Under the pieces are notes generated by a model. It was not told the DNA's origin. It was given only the letters and a program-made list of their open reading frames with translations, and made no database searches. The translations under genes were made by a program, and so were the position numbers. Below are positions 32 to 8,107 of a stretch of 8,519 bases of DNA, one piece after another (the stretch's first letter is position 1; each line of letters opens with the position of its first letter). The stretch is from Desulfobacteraceae bacterium (GTDB taxonomy: Bacteria; Desulfobacterota; Desulfobacteria; Desulfobacterales; UBA11574). Location: NCBI GenBank assembly GCA_030671225.1, contig DAOVAE010000037.1, positions 1 to 8,519 on the forward strand, read 5' to 3'.

Positions 32-322
32 ATGATGATCACAATCAATGGAGAAAATTTTATAACCGATAAAGAAATGATAACGGTCATAGATCTTCTC
101 AACGAGAGAAATGTATCCACGCCGGAAACTGTCTCAGTTCAGGTCAATGGCAGTTTTGTTAAACGGAAGAATTTCAATACAACCGTTGTTAAGGAAAATG
201 ATGAAGTCGACTTCATATTTATGATGTCAGGGGGATCATTTCCCGATGATAATAAGACATTCGTTTTGCATCCGACCTCCACGATTTCTACGAATATTCA
301 GAAAAACAAAAAAGAGAGTTGA
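32..322 (+). CDS. hcyS: Ubiquitin-fold sulfur carrier protein (HcyS/ThiS/MoaD-like) with a C-terminal extension
   Basis: This 96-residue protein is a small beta-grasp sulfur carrier that would be C-terminally thiocarboxylated and act in the cytoplasm. The N-terminal ITINGENF strand, the central VSVQVNGSFVKR segment and the KENDEVDFIFMMSGG segment follow the ThiS pattern, which ends in a Gly-Gly. Here Gly67-Gly68 is followed by 28 more residues (69-96), polar and Lys/Asn/Ser/Thr-rich, so the carrier cannot be adenylated until a protease trims it. A JAMM protease domain is encoded two genes downstream. A GGGAGG ribosome site at 19-24 sits 7 bases before the first ATG; a second ATG at 35 is the alternative start. 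The stop is 6 bases before the next gene. ThiS or MoaD in thiamine or molybdopterin synthesis are alternatives, but the fused JAMM, sulfite reductase and TusA partner argues for amino-acid sulfur assimilation. The family call is firm; the hcyS name is inferred from context. Confidence 0.82.
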   Translation: MMITINGENFITDKEMITVIDLLNERNVSTPETVSVQVNGSFVKRKNFNTTVVKENDEVDFIFMMSGGSFPDDNKTFVLHPTSTISTNIQKNKKES

Positions 323-328
323 GGTTTT

Positions 329-1144
329 ATGATCAACTTTACTGAAAAACAACTTGAACGTTACAGCAGACACATCATTCTCAAAGATGTTGGTATAGAA
401 GGACAAGCCAAAATCATGAACGGCAAGGTTCTGATTATTGGCGCCGGCGGTCTCGGTTCACCTGCAGCTCTGTATCTGGCAGCCGCAGGCGTGGGGACCA
501 TTGGCATTGTTGATTCTGATACGGTGGAGCTTTCCAATTTACAACGACAGATCATTCACTTTACCAAAGATCTATATACCCCTAAGGCAACATCGGCTGC
601 CGAAAAGATGGCGGCGCTCAACCCTGAAGTGACAATCAAAACCTATTATACGTTTGTCAGTGCCGACAACATCCGAGGAATTATCCGAGAGTATGATTTT
701 GTAATTGACGGCACCGATAATTTTGCTGCGAAATTTTTAATCAACGATGCCTGTGTGATGGAGGGCATCCCCTTTTCTCACGGCGGAATCCTTCGTTTCA
801 ACGGCCAGACCATGACGGTCTTGCCGGAAGAATCCGCTTGCTTGCGTTGCGTATTTGAAGGGCCTCCTCCCAGAAATGCCGTGCCGACCTGCGCTCAGGC
901 CGGAGTGCTCGGCGCCATTGCCGGTTTGTTGGGAACCATACAGACGTCCGAGGCATTGAAGTTTCTGACCGGGGCGGGTACGCTGTTGACCGATTCAATG
1001 CTCTTTTTCGATATTTTGACCATGGAGTTTATCAAGCACAAACTGGGAAAGAACAGGGAATGTGGATTATGCGGGGAAGAGCCGACAATTCAGGAACTCA
1101 TTGATGAACAACAGCCTGTCTGTGATTTGAAAACGACCAATTAA
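329..1144 (+). CDS. hcyF: E1-like carrier-adenylating enzyme (HcyF/ThiF/MoeB/HesA family)
   Basis: This 271-residue cytoplasmic enzyme is expected to use ATP to adenylate the C-terminal glycine of the sulfur carrier so that sulfide or persulfide can form a thiocarboxylate. The N-terminus has the family opening RYSRHIILKDVG. The nucleotide loop GAGGLGSP spans residues 38-45, the DSDTVELSNLQRQ segment (Asp/Asn/Arg ATP-Mg contacts) spans 62-74, and DGTDN is at 127-131. CLRC (171-174) and CGLC (245-248) form the usual four-cysteine zinc site. Cys188 in PTCAQAGVLG is at the conserved crossover position. There is no C-terminal rhodanese domain, unlike long MoeB/MOCS3 forms; sulfur is more likely supplied by the reductase/TusA protein encoded next. 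It starts 6 bases after the carrier stop with GAGG at 321-324, and ends 10 bases before the third gene, so translation is probably coupled. The family is certain; the HcyF role is inferred from the operon. Confidence 0.88.
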   Translation: MINFTEKQLERYSRHIILKDVGIEGQAKIMNGKVLIIGAGGLGSPAALYLAAAGVGTIGIVDSDTVELSNLQRQIIHFTKDLYTPKATSAAEKMAALNPEVTIKTYYTFVSADNIRGIIREYDFVIDGTDNFAAKFLINDACVMEGIPFSHGGILRFNGQTMTVLPEESACLRCVFEGPPPRNAVPTCAQAGVLGAIAGLLGTIQTSEALKFLTGAGTLLTDSMLFFDILTMEFIKHKLGKNRECGLCGEEPTIQELIDEQQPVCDLKTTN

Positions 1145-1154
1145 GGAAAAAGAT

Positions 1155-4037
1155 ATGTTGAAAATTACCGAAAACATCATTTCCGGCATTATAGACCATG
1201 CGAAAAAAGATTCGCCTATTGAAGCGTGCGGTTATCTTGCTGAAAAAGAAGGAGTTATCATTCATCAGTACAGGATGAAAAATGCGGATGCATCGGATAT
1301 ACATTTTTCCCTTGATCCCGAAGAGCAATTTGACGCTGTTCGTGACATACGAGCAAAAGGGTTCAAGCTGGCGGCGGCATATCACAGTCACCCGACCACA
1401 CCGGCCCGCCCTTCTAAAGAAGACATCAGACTGGCCTATGATCCTGATATAAGCTATGTAATTGTTTCCCTGTCTGATGGATCGGAAACCCTAAAATCCT
1501 TTAAAATACGTAACAATTATGTAGAGCCCGAAAAAATAGAAATTGTCCAGGATCAACAAGAAGGCTTTAGAAATGGTCTAAAACAAATTGCAAAAAGTCG
1601 GTCGGAAGATGAAAACCATACGGACCTAAAGGCAAGCATCTCTGACCGCATCAGGCGCAGCCAAAAAACAGAAAGCGGTCTGGTCCGATTCTATGAAATA
1701 CCGCCAACCTTTGAAGCTGAAATCGACGAATTAGAGGCACAAATTCAAAGATTCAATGAAGGAGAAATCCCTGCCAGGGAATTAAAAGCGCGTCGCGTAC
1801 CTTTTGGGGTCTATGCCCAGCGCACAAAAGGCACCTACATGGTTCGCGTCCGGGTTCCCGGCGGCTGTGTAACACCCTTTCAGCTTAATACGGTTGCCGG
1901 ACTTTCCGATAGATACGGAAACGGTTCGATTCATATCACGACGCGTCAGGGACTCCAGATCCATGATGTGGTGTTGAAAAATATTGTTGAGGTCATTCGG
2001 CAACTTAATGAAGTCGGCTTGGCCACCAGGGGCGGCGGCGGGAATACGGTACGTAATATCACGGCTTCATGGAACGCCGGAATATCAGAAGATGAAGTCT
2101 TTGATGTTACCCCCTACGCCCTTTCCCTGACAAGCCGGTTAATTGCCGAACCTGATTCCTGGCTTGTACCCCGCAAATACAAGATATCCTTTGCCAACTC
2201 TGCAGATGATAATGCCGGCGCCACCTTCAATGATCTAGGCTTTATTGCCCATGTTAAAAATGGAGCAAAGGGATTCAGAGTCTACGTGGCCGGCGGCATG
2301 GGATTAAAGCCTCAGGTCGCACATCTGCTGCATGATTTTATTCCGGCAGATCAAACCTACATGGTAGCCAAAGCGGTAAAACAGCTTTTTTCAAAATACG
2401 GAAACCGCAGAAACAAGCATACCGCACGGCTGCGGTTTCTCCGGAACAAGCTTGGCAGAGATAAATTTGTTGAATTGTACCACCAAGAGCTTGAAGAACT
2501 GAAAAAGCAGCCTGTTGAACCTTTTATTGTAGCAAATATGGACAACGAACCAGCACCGAGCATACCTATTGAGCCGGTTGAGATACGATCTCCGGATTTT
2601 GACCTCTGGAAACATCGGTTTGTAAGAAAGCAGAGACAGCCAGGATTATACTCTGTTTTGATTCCGGTGCTTCTTGGAGACCTCAGCAGTGAGTACGCCA
2701 TCGAACTGGCCGATTTTCTGATTAATTTTGGCGAAAACGTGCTGCGCTGCACCACCCAGCAGAACCTGAACATCAGGAACATTCCGGGTGACTATTTAGG
2801 AAATGTTTACCAGGTTGTAGTCGCCATATCAGATATGTCAACCGGGCCGGAATTCATGGCCAATTGCATTGCCTGCACAGGGGCAAACACCTGCACCCTC
2901 GGCATCTGCCTTTCTCAGGGCGCCCTGCAGGCAATATTCAGAAAACTCAAAAAATCGGACCTGAATCTTGATGAAATCAGTGATCTGAAGTTGCACATTT
3001 CCGGATGTCCCGATACCTGCGGACTTCACTCAACGGCTGATATAGGGTTTCACGGCAAGGCCGCACGTAAGAACCAGATTATGTATCCGGCTTATAACAT
3101 AGTTGCCGGATCAGTCACCAAAGACGGGCACTCGCGTCTTGCAAGAAAAATCGACATGATCAGCGCCCGCGATCTGCCTGATTTTGTGGCCGAGCTTTTA
3201 AACCATTATCTTAACAAAAAGGACAAATATGCTTCATTTGTTCACTACATTGATGATTGCGGCGAAGCGGATATCAGGACCATCTGTGATAAATATCGCG
3301 ATATTCCGAATTTTGATGATGATAAGAAGTACTATTTCGACTGGGGGGCGAAGGAAGTTTTTTCAGTTGTTGGCATGGGCATAGGGGAATGCTCCGCCGG
3401 ATTGTTTGATCTCATCAATGTGGATCGCGATTTGATAAAAAAACTCCGAGAGGAAAGAAAATCGTTTGCCGACAGCAGTAAAATAGATGAGGCGTTGTAT
3501 AAAATGACCTTTTCGTCATCACGGATGCTTTTAATTGCACGGGGTATTGAAGCACAATCCGACCGTGAAGTGTTCAATACATTTGACAAACATTTTATTG
3601 AAGCGGGCTTAGTTGACAAGCGGTTTAAAAAGCTCATTACAGTTGCGCGCAACAGGGATTTTGAGCAATTGAGGAATATGGAGCATCAGGTTCATGAGTT
3701 GACGACCGCAATGGAGGCATTATATGAATCCATGAATGATTCACTTCGTTTTCCGAGTGAGAAGGAAAAACAAATTGACGAGAGCGACATGAGGGATCGC
3801 ACTGCGGGTAATGACCAAGAAGTATTTAGGGATTATCGCGGTGTTGCCTGCCCGATGAATTTTGTAAAAGTAAAACTGGATCTCGCCATGATGACAACAG
3901 GCCAAACGCTGAAGGTTCTCCTGGATGACGGAGAGCCCATCGAAAATGTTCCGAGGTCTGTAGCCGATGAAGGGCATGAAATCGTAGAGCAGAAAAAAAC
4001 AGATGATTACTGGGCGGTGCTCATTAGAAAAGGATAG
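1155..4037 (+). CDS. Multidomain JAMM protease / siroheme sulfite reductase / TusA-like protein (HcyD-Sir-TusA fusion)
   Basis: This 960-residue cytoplasmic protein joins three sulfur-transfer activities. Residues 1-120 are a JAMM (Mov34/MPN, Mec+/HcyD-like) zinc peptidase with Glu23, His77-Ser-His79-Pro, Ser87 and Asp90. Residues 173-685 are a full ferredoxin-type sulfite/nitrite reductase. Its anion-site residues are Arg264 (TTRQ), Arg300 (NTVRN) and Lys341/Lys343 (PRKYK), and its siroheme-[4Fe-4S] ligands are Cys574, Cys580, Cys618 and Cys622 (ACTGANTC and SGCPDTCG). Residues 690-880 are an unassigned, mainly helical region with GIGECSAG near 742-749. Residues 890-960 are a TusA/SirA-like domain with Cys899-Pro900. 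Known reactions are sulfite to sulfide (six electrons), removal of carrier C-terminal residues by JAMM enzymes, and persulfide relay by TusA. AAGGA at 1143-1147 precedes the ATG. The frame is open throughout with every domain intact, so it is unlikely to be an artefact. Nitrite as substrate cannot be excluded, but the partners favour sulfite. Confidence 0.9.
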   Translation: MLKITENIISGIIDHAKKDSPIEACGYLAEKEGVIIHQYRMKNADASDIHFSLDPEEQFDAVRDIRAKGFKLAAAYHSHPTTPARPSKEDIRLAYDPDISYVIVSLSDGSETLKSFKIRNNYVEPEKIEIVQDQQEGFRNGLKQIAKSRSEDENHTDLKASISDRIRRSQKTESGLVRFYEIPPTFEAEIDELEAQIQRFNEGEIPARELKARRVPFGVYAQRTKGTYMVRVRVPGGCVTPFQLNTVAGLSDRYGNGSIHITTRQGLQIHDVVLKNIVEVIRQLNEVGLATRGGGGNTVRNITASWNAGISEDEVFDVTPYALSLTSRLIAEPDSWLVPRKYKISFANSADDNAGATFNDLGFIAHVKNGAKGFRVYVAGGMGLKPQVAHLLHDFIPADQTYMVAKAVKQLFSKYGNRRNKHTARLRFLRNKLGRDKFVELYHQELEELKKQPVEPFIVANMDNEPAPSIPIEPVEIRSPDFDLWKHRFVRKQRQPGLYSVLIPVLLGDLSSEYAIELADFLINFGENVLRCTTQQNLNIRNIPGDYLGNVYQVVVAISDMSTGPEFMANCIACTGANTCTLGICLSQGALQAIFRKLKKSDLNLDEISDLKLHISGCPDTCGLHSTADIGFHGKAARKNQIMYPAYNIVAGSVTKDGHSRLARKIDMISARDLPDFVAELLNHYLNKKDKYASFVHYIDDCGEADIRTICDKYRDIPNFDDDKKYYFDWGAKEVFSVVGMGIGECSAGLFDLINVDRDLIKKLREERKSFADSSKIDEALYKMTFSSSRMLLIARGIEAQSDREVFNTFDKHFIEAGLVDKRFKKLITVARNRDFEQLRNMEHQVHELTTAMEALYESMNDSLRFPSEKEKQIDESDMRDRTAGNDQEVFRDYRGVACPMNFVKVKLDLAMMTTGQTLKVLLDDGEPIENVPRSVADEGHEIVEQKKTDDYWAVLIRKG

Positions 4038-4082
4038 ATGCTTCACCGGCAGCTTTCGTGCAAAATTCAGGGAAAGGTAGTA

Positions 4083-4101
4083 TTCCCTTCGAACAAGGGA
4101 A
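4083..4101. repeat. Perfect 7-bp inverted repeat in the post-operon gap
   Basis: TTCCCTT and AAGGGAA face each other across a 5-base loop (CGAAC). The stem could fold in RNA from either strand, but there is no T run on either side, so a standard intrinsic terminator is not supported. It lies directly beside the point where the - strand LarE-like reading stops making sense. It could be a weak processing or termination hairpin, or a rearrangement scar. Confidence 0.5.
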
Positions 4102-4106
4102 GGGCT

Positions 4107-4190
4107 GTATGCTACAATGGCACCGTTATACTTGGAGAAATAACTTTCTAATTTCCGCGCACAGATTTCCAGAGCCGCATTATTTTTCAT
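4107..4190 (-). pseudogene. Possible truncated 5' end of a LarE-like PP-loop gene
   Basis: Read on the - strand from an ATG at 4190, 28 codons give a sequence containing RKLESYFSKYNGAIVAYS. This resembles the N-terminus of LarE-type ATP-pyrophosphatases, where a helix is followed by a (V/I)VA(Y/F)S strand that leads into the SGGVDS loop. The loop is absent: the reading continues as PSLVRREYY and then runs antisense into the upstream operon gene. No strong ribosome site precedes the ATG. If the resemblance is real, this is a remnant of a neighbouring gene broken by deletion or rearrangement. The match is short and judged from memory, so confidence is low. Confidence 0.25.
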
Positions 4191-4236
4191 GATCTTATCT
4201 ATTCAAACCTTTTTTATCTTTTATAACCAAATTTTT

Positions 4237-4264
4237 TTGTTACTAAAAAATTATTGATTAATAT
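4237..4264 (+). promoter_or_regulatory. Candidate sigma70-type promoter for the TPR gene
   Basis: TTGTTA at 4237-4242 and TAATAT at 4259-4264 are separated by 16 bases in an A+T-rich stretch, about 100 bases upstream of the TPR start. Other weak pairings are possible in this A+T-rich DNA, so the position is tentative. Confidence 0.3.
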
Positions 4265-4360
4265 GCTACGCAGTGGTATGTTGATGTCAATCTAAAGTCT
4301 TAAATGCTTCATGCAAATGTTTTAGAACAAAGATACCTACTTTTCTGTTTTGGAGGTTAA

Positions 4361-4972
4361 ATGGCGAATAAAGAAAAAACCAAAGGCGATTACGTTAAAA
4401 AGGAAACCATGCTGCTTGTTGTTTTAATTACTCTGATAGTGGGGTTTTTAGGAGGAATTGTTTTCTCTGTTTATAAATTCAGGACAAAAGAATCGGTACA
4501 AACAGCGATGCTGCCGGAGCAGACCGCTATGGATAAGGATGTCTCAATAGATAGGGCGGTCAAGATTTTCGAACTAGAACAAAAGACCTCTCAAAGTCCT
4601 GATGATGTTGCAGCATGGGTGCAGCTGGGGAATCTATATTTTGATGCGAATAACTATACCAAGGCGATTTTAGCATATAATAAATCCCTGGAACTTAATC
4701 CTGACAATGTCAATGTTATGACCGATCTGGGAGTAATGTATCGTCGCAACGGCCAACCACCTGAAGCGATTAAAGCCTTTGACAGAGCAATAAAGATTGA
4801 TCCTAAACATGAAACCGCCCGGTTTAATAAGGGTATTGTTCTTATGCATGATTTAAATGATTTGGACGGCGCTATCCGGGCATGGGAAGAGCTTGTCAAG
4901 GTAAATCCACTGGCAAAGGGACCAAACGGACGCTCCGTCAAAGAATTTCTTGATAAATTAAAAGAAAGATAA
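4361..4972 (+). CDS. Membrane-anchored tetratricopeptide (TPR) repeat protein
   Basis: This 203-residue protein has a charged Lys-rich cytoplasmic N-terminus (1-15), one hydrophobic membrane helix (about 17-38, containing LLVVLITLIVGFLGG) and a soluble part expected in the periplasm. Residues 82-184 form about three consecutive TPR units. Their signature positions are visible in AWVQLGNLYFDANNYTKAI, DLGVMYRRNGQPPEAIKAF and ARFNKGIVLMHDLNDLDGAI, with the Asn-Pro or Asp-Pro turns (ELNPD, KIDPKH, VNPLAK) between units. TPRs bind partner proteins, so it is probably a scaffold or adaptor; the partner cannot be read from the sequence. The topology resembles NrfG/CcmH-like TPR proteins but no such cluster is present. 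A strong GGAGG at 4352-4356, 4 bases before the ATG, fixes the start. The next gene begins 156 bases downstream. Confidence 0.85.
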   Translation: MANKEKTKGDYVKKETMLLVVLITLIVGFLGGIVFSVYKFRTKESVQTAMLPEQTAMDKDVSIDRAVKIFELEQKTSQSPDDVAAWVQLGNLYFDANNYTKAILAYNKSLELNPDNVNVMTDLGVMYRRNGQPPEAIKAFDRAIKIDPKHETARFNKGIVLMHDLNDLDGAIRAWEELVKVNPLAKGPNGRSVKEFLDKLKER

Positions 4973-4995
4973 CATTTTATTGGAAGATTTTCCTC

Positions 4996-5024
4996 TTGCA
5001 AATAATAAATATTACTGTAATTAT
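4996..5024 (+). promoter_or_regulatory. Candidate promoter and short direct repeat upstream of the peptidase gene
   Basis: TTGCAA at 4996-5001 is followed after 17 bases by AATTAT at 5019-5024 (or after 16 by TAATTA). The octamer TATTACTG occurs at 5010-5017 and again at 5022-5029, a 12-base period that overlaps the -10 region and could be a regulator site or chance in A+T-rich DNA. Confidence 0.25.
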
Positions 5025-5115
5025 TACTGATTAACTACCAAACAACTAGTCAATTTTACGTAAATGCTCAGGGTATATCTGGAGCCGGTTTGGCGGAAGT
5101 ATTCCCTTTTTTAAT

Positions 5116-5120
5116 GAGGA
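5116..5120 (+). promoter_or_regulatory. Ribosome binding site that decides the start of the peptidase gene
   Basis: GAGGA lies 8 bases before the ATG at 5129. It favours that start over the upstream in-frame TTG at 5090 and the ATG at 5114, which the site itself overlaps. Starting at 5129 also gives a normal-length signal peptide. Confidence 0.6.
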
Positions 5121-5128
5121 AATGTTGC

Positions 5129-8107
5129 ATGCATATAACTAAAAGAATGATTTTTGTTTCACTTGTTTGTCTCCCGGTAACGGCTTGGAGTGCGAACCTG
5201 CAATATGCACTCGATGTCAAGATAAATACCTCCGAGCAGAAAATCACTTGTACTGCCCGACTTAAAGCAGATGCTGAGAAAAAAATAAATTTATCCGTTG
5301 GCAATCTACGCAAATTGAAGGTTGATGGTAACGATGTCAACACCGTTGCTAATGAAAATATCAGCCTGACGGTCCAAAAGAACAAAGAAATAATTATCAG
5401 CTATGAAGCCCTGATTACTGATAAAGAGACTAACTTCATTGATAAAGATAATGTGTTTTTAACCGAGGAATGGTATCCACAGCCTGATGTTCTGGCCGAG
5501 TATGCGCTTTCTGTGACTTTACCAGAAAATTTTATTGCCACCTCAGAAGCTGAAACAACGACAATCCAAAAACATGGCGGGAACAAAACTTTTAATTTTC
5601 AGTTCAGTCATCCGCTGGATACTTTACATCTGGCGGCTTCAATCCGGTATGTTTTGAGAAAAGACTACTATAACAATATTGTCATTGAAGCTTATTTCTT
5701 TAAAGAAGACGCCCATCTCGCTGATACATATATTGCTCATACTAAAAAATATCTGGCAATGTATGAAACTATGCTTACTCCGTATCCCTATAAGCGTTTT
5801 GCCATTGTAGAAAATATTTTCCCCACCGGCAATTCCATGCCTACTTATACACTGCTTGGTAACCAGGTAGTGAATTTACCATTTATTGTCAAAACTTCTC
5901 TGGGGCATGAAATTCTGCACCAATGGTTTGGCAATTCTGTTTATATTGATTTCGCTCACGGCAATTGGGCAGAAGGAATCACCACCTACCTGGCCGATCA
6001 TCACTATGCATCTATAGAAGGCAAAGACACTGCCTATCGCAAACAAATCTTGGTGGATTACAATGCTTATGTAAATGCAGACAATGCAATGCCGGTGAGC
6101 AATTTTATAAGCCGGCACAATAAGGCCCAAAGCACCATCGGTTATGGTAAGGCTGCGATGTTCTTTCATATGCTACGAAAACTTTATGGTGATGAATCAT
6201 TTTTTACAGCCTTGCGGGAGTTCCTACAGCAGAATAGTTTTCGTAAAGCTTCATGGCACGACATCCAGCGCACTTTTGAAAGAGTGTCTGGAAAAGAACT
6301 GTACGCATACTTTGGGGATTGGCTCACCCGAAAAAATATTCCACGGCTTAGTGTGGAAAATGCTGAGTTGATTGTGGAGCAGGGACAACTTAAGCTGAAC
6401 TTTACTCTATTACAACAGGGTGAAGCTTATCCACTGCATATCCCTGTCACCTTATACACTGACAACAGCAAAAATATGCTATTTGTTGAGGTGACAAAAT
6501 CTAAAGAAAACATAAGTCTTGCTCTGGATGAACCACCCAATAAAGCTGTCATTGATGAAAACTACTCACTTATGCGGCAATTAGCCCCTGAAGAAATTCC
6601 TCCGGTTTTGGCCGGTATCATGGGCAAACAAAAGCTGACTGTGATTATTTCATCCAGGCAACGTTCAATATACCAACCTCTAATAGACTCGTTGGGAGTT
6701 AAAAATATCACTTATGTGACTTCGGACAAAACCACATTTCCTCAGATCAAAGAAAATACGTTTCTGATTGCAGGTTATGACACTACTCTTGCAGACACAC
6801 TGTTCGGGGAACAAGCCGTCCCCGAAGATGGAGTGCGCATAAAAGTGTATAAAAATCCATATAATACATCAGAGCGCATCGCTCTGTTACACACCAAAAA
6901 CAAAAAAGAAGCAAAAGCGGTACAGCGTAAAATATCTCATTACGGCAAATACACCGAGCTGGCCTTTAAAAACGGTCAAAACACTTTCAAAGCGATTTCC
7001 AAAGCAGATAACGGCATCTTGGTGTTGTCACATCCGGCAACCCGGGCTCTAATACCTGACAAGCTGGCAACAATAGGCGATATTATACCCAAACTCTTAT
7101 CCAGCCGTATTATTTATATAGGCGAAAAGCATGACAAATTCGCGCACCACATCAACCAACTTATAGTCATCAAAAAGATGCACGAGGCCGGATATGAACT
7201 GGCTGTTGGTATGGAAATGTTTCAAAGACCTGTTCAACAGGTGGTGAATGACTACTTTGCCGGGCGGATTGATGAGCGTATATTTTTGCAAAAATCCGAA
7301 TATTTTACAAAATGGAAGTACGACTACAATCTGTATAAGCCGATCATTGATTATCTCAAACAACAAAACATCCCGCTTGTAGCCCTCAATATCAAAGGAG
7401 ATATTACCCGTAAGGTTGCCCGTGAAGGCATACACAGTCTGCCCGATGAAAAAAAGAAACAGTTGCCCTCTTCAATGGATTTTTCAAATGAACAATACCG
7501 GGGAGATTTGAATAAGGTGTTTGCTCTGCATACGAAACAAAAAGAACTGCAGGATTATAATTACTTTTTACAAGCCCAAACTCTGTGGGACGAAGGCATG
7601 GCGGAATCTGCCCATCAGTTTCTGGCAAACAATCCTGAACGCAAACTGGTGATATTAGCGGGTAATGGTCATGTCAGGCATAAATATGGAATTCCTGAAC
7701 GTTTGTATCGGCGCAACAATGAGCCGTTTACGGTCGTTGTCCAAGATGAAGCAATTGAAGATGATATTGCTGATTATGTTCTGTTGACCACTGAGCTGAA
7801 GGGTAAGAAAGCGCCTAAATTGGGTGTGATAGTTGAAGAAAAAGACCAGGATTTGGTTGTTGTGGGCGTGGAGCATAAAAGCCCCGCAAAGAAAGCCGGG
7901 TTGCAAGAAGGGGATATTATTAAACAGTTTGCGGGACAGTCAATAACATCGTTGGCTGACTTGAAACTTGCACTGTTCTACAGCGAAATTGGAAGTACAC
8001 TCAAGATCCAGCTTAAAAGGGGCGATAAGACACTGGATAAAGAGATCGAGTTGTTCAGAATCAAACAGTTTTCACATCAGCTTTTCATGGAAAAGCATGA
8101 AAGGTGA
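5129..8107 (+). CDS. Exported M1-family peptidase / ChaN-type domain / PDZ domain fusion
   Basis: This 992-residue protein has a type I signal peptide: Lys5-Arg6, a hydrophobic core at 7-18, and probable cleavage after Ser21 in TAWSAN. It is therefore likely periplasmic or outer-envelope. Residues 22-210 resemble the M1 beta N-domain. Residues 210-405 are the zinc catalytic domain, with HEILH (His260, Glu261, His264), zinc-ligand Glu282 in NWAEG, and the YGKAAMFFHML segment giving the likely catalytic Tyr339. Residues 405-490 form a beta domain. Residues 495-655 are unassigned. Residues 656-872 match the ChaN family (haem-binding lipoprotein; TIKI/TraB-like fold), with GEKHD at 665-669, GMEMFQRP at 694-701 and GNGHVRHKYGIPERL from 845. 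Residues 895-977 are a PDZ domain (SPAKKAGLQEGDII). The exopeptidase GAMEN motif is missing. A start at the TTG at 5090 would add 13 residues. The substrate is unknown; degradation of envelope proteins or peptides, perhaps haem-associated, is a guess. Confidence 0.85.
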   Translation: MHITKRMIFVSLVCLPVTAWSANLQYALDVKINTSEQKITCTARLKADAEKKINLSVGNLRKLKVDGNDVNTVANENISLTVQKNKEIIISYEALITDKETNFIDKDNVFLTEEWYPQPDVLAEYALSVTLPENFIATSEAETTTIQKHGGNKTFNFQFSHPLDTLHLAASIRYVLRKDYYNNIVIEAYFFKEDAHLADTYIAHTKKYLAMYETMLTPYPYKRFAIVENIFPTGNSMPTYTLLGNQVVNLPFIVKTSLGHEILHQWFGNSVYIDFAHGNWAEGITTYLADHHYASIEGKDTAYRKQILVDYNAYVNADNAMPVSNFISRHNKAQSTIGYGKAAMFFHMLRKLYGDESFFTALREFLQQNSFRKASWHDIQRTFERVSGKELYAYFGDWLTRKNIPRLSVENAELIVEQGQLKLNFTLLQQGEAYPLHIPVTLYTDNSKNMLFVEVTKSKENISLALDEPPNKAVIDENYSLMRQLAPEEIPPVLAGIMGKQKLTVIISSRQRSIYQPLIDSLGVKNITYVTSDKTTFPQIKENTFLIAGYDTTLADTLFGEQAVPEDGVRIKVYKNPYNTSERIALLHTKNKKEAKAVQRKISHYGKYTELAFKNGQNTFKAISKADNGILVLSHPATRALIPDKLATIGDIIPKLLSSRIIYIGEKHDKFAHHINQLIVIKKMHEAGYELAVGMEMFQRPVQQVVNDYFAGRIDERIFLQKSEYFTKWKYDYNLYKPIIDYLKQQNIPLVALNIKGDITRKVAREGIHSLPDEKKKQLPSSMDFSNEQYRGDLNKVFALHTKQKELQDYNYFLQAQTLWDEGMAESAHQFLANNPERKLVILAGNGHVRHKYGIPERLYRRNNEPFTVVVQDEAIEDDIADYVLLTTELKGKKAPKLGVIVEEKDQDLVVVGVEHKSPAKKAGLQEGDIIKQFAGQSITSLADLKLALFYSEIGSTLKIQLKRGDKTLDKEIELFRIKQFSHQLFMEKHER

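Follow-up and report, generated by a model that had tools for sequence, protein, structure and literature searches.

The subject of this report is a protein in which protein cleavage, sulfite reduction and sulfur transfer appear to be joined. It is encoded at positions 1155 to 4037 of an 8,519-base stretch of Desulfobacteraceae DNA (contig DAOVAE010000037.1, called the window below), which is a complete contig of a fragmented genome (1.06 Mb, 69% complete). The product combines a JAMM metalloprotease domain, a siroheme sulfite reductase (SiR), a helical domain and a TusA-family domain. Judging from sequence comparisons, we consider it rather probable that this fusion trims an adjacent ThiS-like sulfur carrier and loads it with sulfite-derived sulfur. 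Sulfite would likely end up as sulfur bound to the carrier, for use in sulfur amino acids, and little of it would escape as free sulfide.

One frame for protease, reductase and TusA

The features concerned, all on the plus strand, are as follows.

1155..4037, plus strand: JAMM-SiR-helical-TusA fusion protein, 960 amino acids (open reading frame translation, Pfam, alignment, structure model)
1155..1547, plus strand: JAMM/Prok-JAB metalloprotease domain (E23, H77, H79, S87, D90)
1548..1703, plus strand: variable linker, no in-frame start codon (predicted local distance difference test score below 50 at residues 136-165; alignment gapped there)
1704..3269, plus strand: siroheme/4Fe-4S sulfite reductase, NirA / ferredoxin type (R264, R300, K341, K343, C574, C580, C618, C622)
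3270..3770, plus strand: linker with GECSAG cysteine (C746) and putative, undescribed HEPN-like helical domain (about residues 744-864)
3822..4031, plus strand: TusA-family domain, Cys899 in a CPMN motif (codon 3849-3851; PF01206)
32..322, plus strand: ThiS-like sulfur carrier, 96 amino acids, Gly-Gly at residues 67-68, 28-residue tail (PF02597, TIGR01683)
236..319, plus strand: carrier C-terminal tail past Gly-Gly, predicted JAMM substrate (tail comparison)
329..1144, plus strand: E1-like carrier-activating enzyme (ThiF/MoeB family), no rhodanese domain (PF00899, 264.9 bits)

A sequence-only reading of the window had placed three modules, with 13 named residues, in a single open frame, and translation, alignment and the Pfam search that it proposed bear this out. 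The domains recovered, all above Pfam curated cut-offs, are Prok-JAB, two copies each of NIR_SIR_ferr and NIR_SIR, and TusA. The reductase part (PF01077 and PF03460) has the ferredoxin-like and 4Fe-4S/siroheme repeats in duplicate together with four cluster cysteines, and the TusA domain scores 71.6 bits against PF01206 (cut-off, 28.6). The 13 named residues of JAMM, reductase and TusA are invariant in an alignment of 26 full-architecture proteins; in a wider set, the reductase residues are kept in 119/119 proteins and Cys899 in 118/119. An AGGA sits 8 to 11 bases 5' of the fusion-gene start codon, and no in-frame ATG, GTG or TTG was found in residues 120 to 228, a range that takes in the linker between protease and reductase. 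A separate reductase start within that linker is thereby ruled out, and the frame is, as far as sequence can tell, a single translation product.

Does the reductase act on sulfite? The best NCBI models are NirA-like (NF007126, 247.9 bits, below the cut-off of 523), which would suit a nitrite reductase, or a sulfite-detoxifying enzyme with decorative domains. K343 counts against a nitrite reductase identity. It is the sulfite-reductase-type residue, present in 119/119 proteins; the tobacco nitrite reductases carry Asn at the aligned position, with entry 3vlx being an N226K mutant. The sulfur-assimilation neighbors in relatives argue the same way, and we regard this alternative as very improbable. 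Structure matches listed for the whole model (VIA-align) cover residues 1 to 137 and 189 to 705, the helical part having been searched by itself; for the solved chain of M. tuberculosis NirA (1zj8), the alignment is confined to the reductase part (residues 189 to 708 of the model).

Relatives were surveyed in 80 named loci, the best 80 of 259 found with an alignment query, each with flanks of up to 10 kb per side. In 71 of the 80, from many phyla, reductase and TusA form one protein. The usual TusA motif is CPxP. The fused domains have CPxN in 71/71 cases, 60 of them CPMN, and the window's scores 23.9 bits against the TusA equivalog NF001423, below its cut-off of 78. By motif and score, the fused TusA domain is a subclass of the TusA family.

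What would the protease cut? The sequence-only reading had the carrier held by the fusion protein itself, and in this it was mistaken, since the carrier has a gene of its own and ends in an unusual tail of 28 residues; it is correct that the partners of the reductase, carrier and E1, are encoded next door. Carrier, E1 and fusion gene lie in tandem on the same strand with gaps of 6 and 10 bases. The carrier scores 38.1 bits against PF02597 (cut-off, 22.5). For the E1, PF00899 is the sole match above cut-off, and the Pfam scan found no rhodanese domain in it. Of the carriers encoded near an E1 in the named loci, 45/47 extend past the last GG by one residue or more, as do 66 of 67 carriers found with the window's carrier (itself counted); among these 67, the tail is 1 to 5 residues long in 62, 20 in 1, 28 in 3 (the window's counted) and absent in 1. 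Carriers tailed past Gly-Gly would need a protease ahead of E1, which fits the fused JAMM domain, and the tail is a plausible substrate for it. The 28-residue tail is not a lone read error, since two further protein clusters carry the long tail. The three (P0122-P0124) share it nearly identically, and their bodies diverge more: against the window's carrier, the other two are identical at 26/28 and 28/28 tail positions, with 62/68 and 56/68 in the body. Recombination, chimeric contigs or a functional tail may account for this. In locus L042, the stretch matching the long tail is a non-coding gap.

The fusion and its partners across relatives

A homologue search passed 3114 proteins, and the best 120 were listed. 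JAMM, SiR and TusA occur together in 26 of these best 120 (Pfam lists, window counted), nearly all others being SiR plus TusA. A search of long proteins only, made with the JAMM region alone, gave 16 matches, and 16/16 (window counted) share the full architecture. Could the fused frame be an assembly or sequencing artefact? The assembly is fragmented and incomplete, as mentioned. The same architecture in these two sets, and in the named loci L039 and L052, rejects the idea through independent relatives, leaving it a negligible probability.

In the 80 named loci, JAMM is joined to the reductase in 4, is a separate gene of the same locus in 52 and was not seen in 24, so that it is fused to or shares a locus with the reductase in 56/80. 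Most of the separate genes (41/52) either overlap the reductase frame or stop no more than 200 bases away from it. Two of the four joined loci (L042 and L085) are cut ahead of TusA; full fusions stand in L039 and L052. The nearest named relatives are Desulfobacterales assemblies: L039 (genome G009) has the full fusion, and L042 (G001) has a fusion cut by the contig end. Within the window's class, 11 of 389 genomes matched at an E value of 1e-60 or better (the window's own counted), and JAMM-joined copies were found only in the window's family (G000, G001 and G009), three loci of G179 and G342 being cut on that side.

The sequence-only reading had treated the fusion of the modules as special. 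For JAMM this stands, its joining being unusual; for reductase and TusA it does not, since their joining is the rule of the family (71/80 loci). The count across genomes that it called for finds the fusion to recur, as given above. Close relatives with separate genes, which it had named as grounds for doubt, do exist for JAMM: L040, 61% identical, encodes it as a separate overlapping gene. The JAMM fusion is hence optional, and the fusion in the window stands.

How often did the fusion arise? On a FastTree tree of 199 sequences, 30 of them fused, the fusion label requires 7 changes. On an IQ-TREE tree of 42 rows, well-supported branches force at least 6, and an approximately unbiased (AU) test on these rows rejects a single clade of all fused proteins, and with it one origin of the fusion (p-AU 5.65e-11). 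The 42 rows were picked around fused proteins, so the change count is a minimum for the sample and not a rate, with gains and losses not told apart. By these trees, the JAMM fusion was gained or lost at least 6 times. That the same two modules were joined repeatedly speaks for a working link between JAMM and reductase, and it makes this a case of a ubiquitin-type protease repeatedly joined to a redox enzyme.

Judged from the sampled sequences, the widespread core is SiR, an undescribed HEPN-like helical domain and TusA, with JAMM usually the next gene. In an alignment of the helical domain (A3, the window plus 72 of 77 locus stretches; L055, L079, L101, L110 and L118 excluded), the HEPN ribonuclease motif R-x4-6-H has no position common to more than 2/73 rows, and any match occurs in 12/73. 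Related reductases in other genomes of the phylum (L123 and L125-L130) end in the same helical domain with no TusA, and a GECAG motif is read in L123, L125 and L128; the helical domain may be wider in spread than the TusA joining. Six named loci, mostly of Acidobacteria (L056, L062, L066, L069, L072 and L088), have reductase and helical domain without TusA. Five of the six have no carrier kit within 4 kb, L072 has little flank, and the group forms a natural control. In nine loci (L050, L065, L068, L079, L080, L082, L087, L094 and L099), a free TusA gene (CPMT) stands ahead of JAMM, preceded in eight by a DsrE-like gene. In P0019, a truncated TusA continues into an incomplete PAPS (3'-phosphoadenosine 5'-phosphosulfate) reductase. 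This apparent fusion may be a misjoined contig and was not used as evidence, although its reductase part is still a row of alignment A2 and of the 199-sequence tree.

Which genes accompany the reductase? Neighbors were counted as sequence clusters, with one representative of each scanned with Pfam. In the named loci, E1 occurs in 51, enzymes of the O-acetylhomoserine sulfhydrylase (OAHS) family in 37, PAPS-reductase-type genes in 36, two siroheme-type gene clusters in 30 and 22, CysN-type genes in 24, Rrf2 regulators in 22 and PALP (CysK-type) genes in 22. The OAHS-family gene is directly upstream of E1 in 32 of the 37 loci that have it. The set of carrier, OAH sulfhydrylase, E1, JAMM and SiR-TusA recurs in genomes of many phyla, with PAPS-reductase-type, CysN-type and siroheme genes nearby. 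A protein-thiocarboxylate methionine pathway (HcyS, HcyD, HcyF, Sir and MetY) was reportedly described in Wolinella succinogenes by Krishnamoorthy and Begley in 2011. Since the relatives' clusters hold O-acetylhomoserine sulfhydrylase, PAPS reductase and siroheme genes, the present system looks like a variant of that type.

Of the TusA-bearing reductases, 52/71 have two or more of the three partners (carrier, E1 and JAMM) at a distance of up to 4 kb, versus 1/7 of those without TusA (Fisher p 0.004, kinship uncorrected). Where both flanks extend to 3 kb or more, the figures are 38/47 versus 1/5 (p 0.011, again uncorrected for kinship). L042 and L085 were set aside as cut, and L059, among the seven without TusA, is truncated on the 3' side, which may explain its lack of TusA.

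A predicted route from sulfite to the carrier

How might the parts work together? (i) JAMM, whose residues are in place, would cut the 28-residue tail from the carrier and expose Gly-Gly. (ii) The adjacent E1, by its family, would adenylate the Gly-Gly end. (iii) The reductase, its ligands intact, would use electrons from ferredoxin or a comparable donor to reduce sulfite. (iv) Cys899 of TusA would catch the siroheme sulfur as a persulfide, possibly via C746, and pass it to the carrier adenylate to give a thiocarboxylate; this step is the weakest. (v) A pyridoxal phosphate enzyme, most likely O-acetylhomoserine sulfhydrylase, would take the sulfur, none having yet been seen in the incomplete genome, and JAMM may also cut the product off the carrier, as Wolinella HcyD reportedly does. 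The protease-reductase fusion would hold the start and the end of the carrier cycle on a single scaffold.

A stricter version of the hand-off is possible, though we hold it only tentatively. The reductase would stop at zero-valent sulfur, which would travel from siroheme to C746, to Cys899 and to the self-trimmed carrier, with no free sulfide, making the protein an assimilatory counterpart of DsrAB-DsrC. According to Cao et al. 2026 (PMC13188885), four assimilatory SiRs yield zero-valent sulfur directly, and nothing so far implicates DsrC in assimilation. Zero-valent sulfur is the oxidation state required for the TusA persulfide of step (iv).

Several observations weigh against the loading of the carrier for methionine with little free sulfide. 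To our knowledge, no fused member has a measured activity. JAMM was not seen in the available DNA of 18 of the 71 TusA-bearing loci, and in 19 of the 71 no more than one of the three partners lies within 4 kb; several of these are cut by contig ends, and six have about 10 kb on both sides. Such partner-poor loci suggest that the reductase-TusA unit may also act without a carrier kit nearby. The free TusA of the nine loci mentioned, mostly Bacteroidetes or Chlorobiota, is a second one. The carrier exceeds the NCBI cut-off for thiamine ThiS (TIGR01683, 48.3 bits versus 37.45), so that its name alone does not point to methionine. No OAH sulfhydrylase was found in the window, whose contig begins at the carrier, and the sole strong PF01053 protein of its 69% complete genome scores best as methionine gamma-lyase. 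Finally, G009, of the same family and with the same fusion, encodes a DsrA above the curated cut-off (617 bits) with a likely DsrB adjoining, so that sulfide should not be scarce there; neither G000 nor G001, each 69% complete, shows DsrA or DsrB. By this gene evidence, keeping sulfide scarce cannot be the universal reason for the fusion. As sulfide should be plentiful in a sulfate reducer, the benefit may be speed, control or sulfite economy, not shielding.

The sulfide expected in G009 also suits a plainer account, in which the modules are fused for co-expression only. Ordinary sulfide would be released and react with the carrier adenylate in solution, as is said of Wolinella Sir, and TusA would serve another step. 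Adjacent overlapping genes fuse easily, and JAMM is commoner as a separate gene close to or overlapping the reductase, as counted above. Such an account sits poorly with the steady joining of TusA and the near-invariance of its cysteine, and with the repeated joining of JAMM seen in the trees and the AU test; we think it unlikely, though worth keeping in view.

Does the sulfur end up in homocysteine at all? The carrier could instead feed another product (cysteine, thiamine or another thio-cofactor, or tRNA), making the fusion a general sulfite-to-thiocarboxylate loader. Besides the ThiS-like score of the carrier, this is favored by the gene order of the window, of L042 and of the fused L052, none of which has an OAH sulfhydrylase between carrier and E1, by the PALP genes of 22/80 loci and by the several products that protein thiocarboxylates serve (PMC6225789). 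Against it stand the OAHS-family genes of 37/80 loci, with their usual place directly upstream of E1, and, in G001, a regulator family common to the operon and to an OAHS gene with metX. In that genome, some 600 bases separate the carrier of L042 from an upstream regulator with a helix-turn-helix and two CW domains; another regulator, 68% identical to it, immediately precedes an OAHS-family gene, with metX next (L147). A regulator of the same family likewise precedes an OAHS-family gene in G009, and two copies are present in the genome of the window, one of them at the end of a contig. The OAHS-like genes of G001 and G009, elsewhere in the genome, score 450 and 456 bits to TIGR01326, under the cut-off of 495. 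Since the regulator is also found beside other genes, the tie between carrier operon and OAHS/metX is suggestive only. On balance, a product other than homocysteine seems improbable, if far from negligible.

The OAHS operon of G001 goes on past metX: L164 (G001:C450, positions 40-5604) has in a row a regulator, an OAHS-family gene, metX, MetW-like, TusA-like, a NifS/IscS-type desulfurase and IscU-like genes, the MetW-like and IscU-like calls having been made by eye. With its TusA-like and desulfurase genes, this OAHS operon could possibly serve a second, cysteine-derived sulfur route into methionine.

Known systems and further genes of the window

The Wolinella pathway shares with the window a carrier extended past Gly-Gly, a JAMM protease, an E1 and a sulfite reductase, as well as the OAH sulfhydrylase of many relatives' clusters. 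The window differs in having protease and reductase in one polypeptide, a 28-residue carrier tail and no adjacent OAH sulfhydrylase and, as far as the Wolinella pathway is reportedly described, in a reductase joined to TusA and a HEPN-like domain. CysO-CysM-Mec of Mycobacterium likewise uses a carrier thiocarboxylate with JAMM release; it differs in that its product is cysteine, its E1 carries rhodanese and the reductase lies outside the unit. DsrAB-DsrC of sulfate reducers also pairs a sulfur-accepting cysteine protein with a siroheme reductase, but DsrC is separate and unrelated to TusA, and the system is dissimilatory.

The Wolinella thiocarboxylate pathway is cited in passages of PMC6271081 and PMC6225789. 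Operon class 4e of Iyer et al. 2006 has the same gene kit (ThiS/MoaD, JAB, E1, SirA, SiR, PAPS reductase and OAHS), with SirA (TusA) always present and a role in assimilation predicted; its entry lists SirA and JAB as separate proteins, and the fusion given there is of ThiS to SiR, in two actinobacteria (PMC1779556). Among halobacterial NirA proteins, 19/529 carry a rhodanese domain, so that a reductase of the same family is joined to a sulfurtransferase as in the window, but to rhodanese in place of TusA and, in the passage describing them, with no mention of JAMM (PMC11237513). No JAMM-SiR or SiR-TusA fusion was found named in the titles or abstract openings of the papers that searches of the open literature listed. 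Already known, then, are the gene kit (2006), the Wolinella pathway and the NirA-rhodanese and ThiS-SiR fusions; the JAMM-SiR and SiR-TusA joinings appear, by these listings, to be new.

A real hand-off would mean that, in many uncultured bacteria, assimilatory sulfite reduction need not end in free sulfide, and the acceptor of sulfur from the assimilatory siroheme could be tested on one purified protein. An SiR with a CPxN TusA tail would then also be a genome marker for thiocarboxylate-based sulfur assimilation where the methionine or cysteine route looks incomplete.

On the 3' side of the fusion gene come a TPR protein and then, at 5090-8107, a 1005-amino-acid protein with M1 peptidase, ChaN/Tiki haem-binding and PDZ domains, neither with a visible link to the fusion. 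A minus-strand frame at 3744-4190 begins with a stretch resembling the N-terminal part of LarE (L166:651-1592; 33% over 86 columns, with a 27-residue gap) and looks like a decayed LarE remnant behind the fusion gene.

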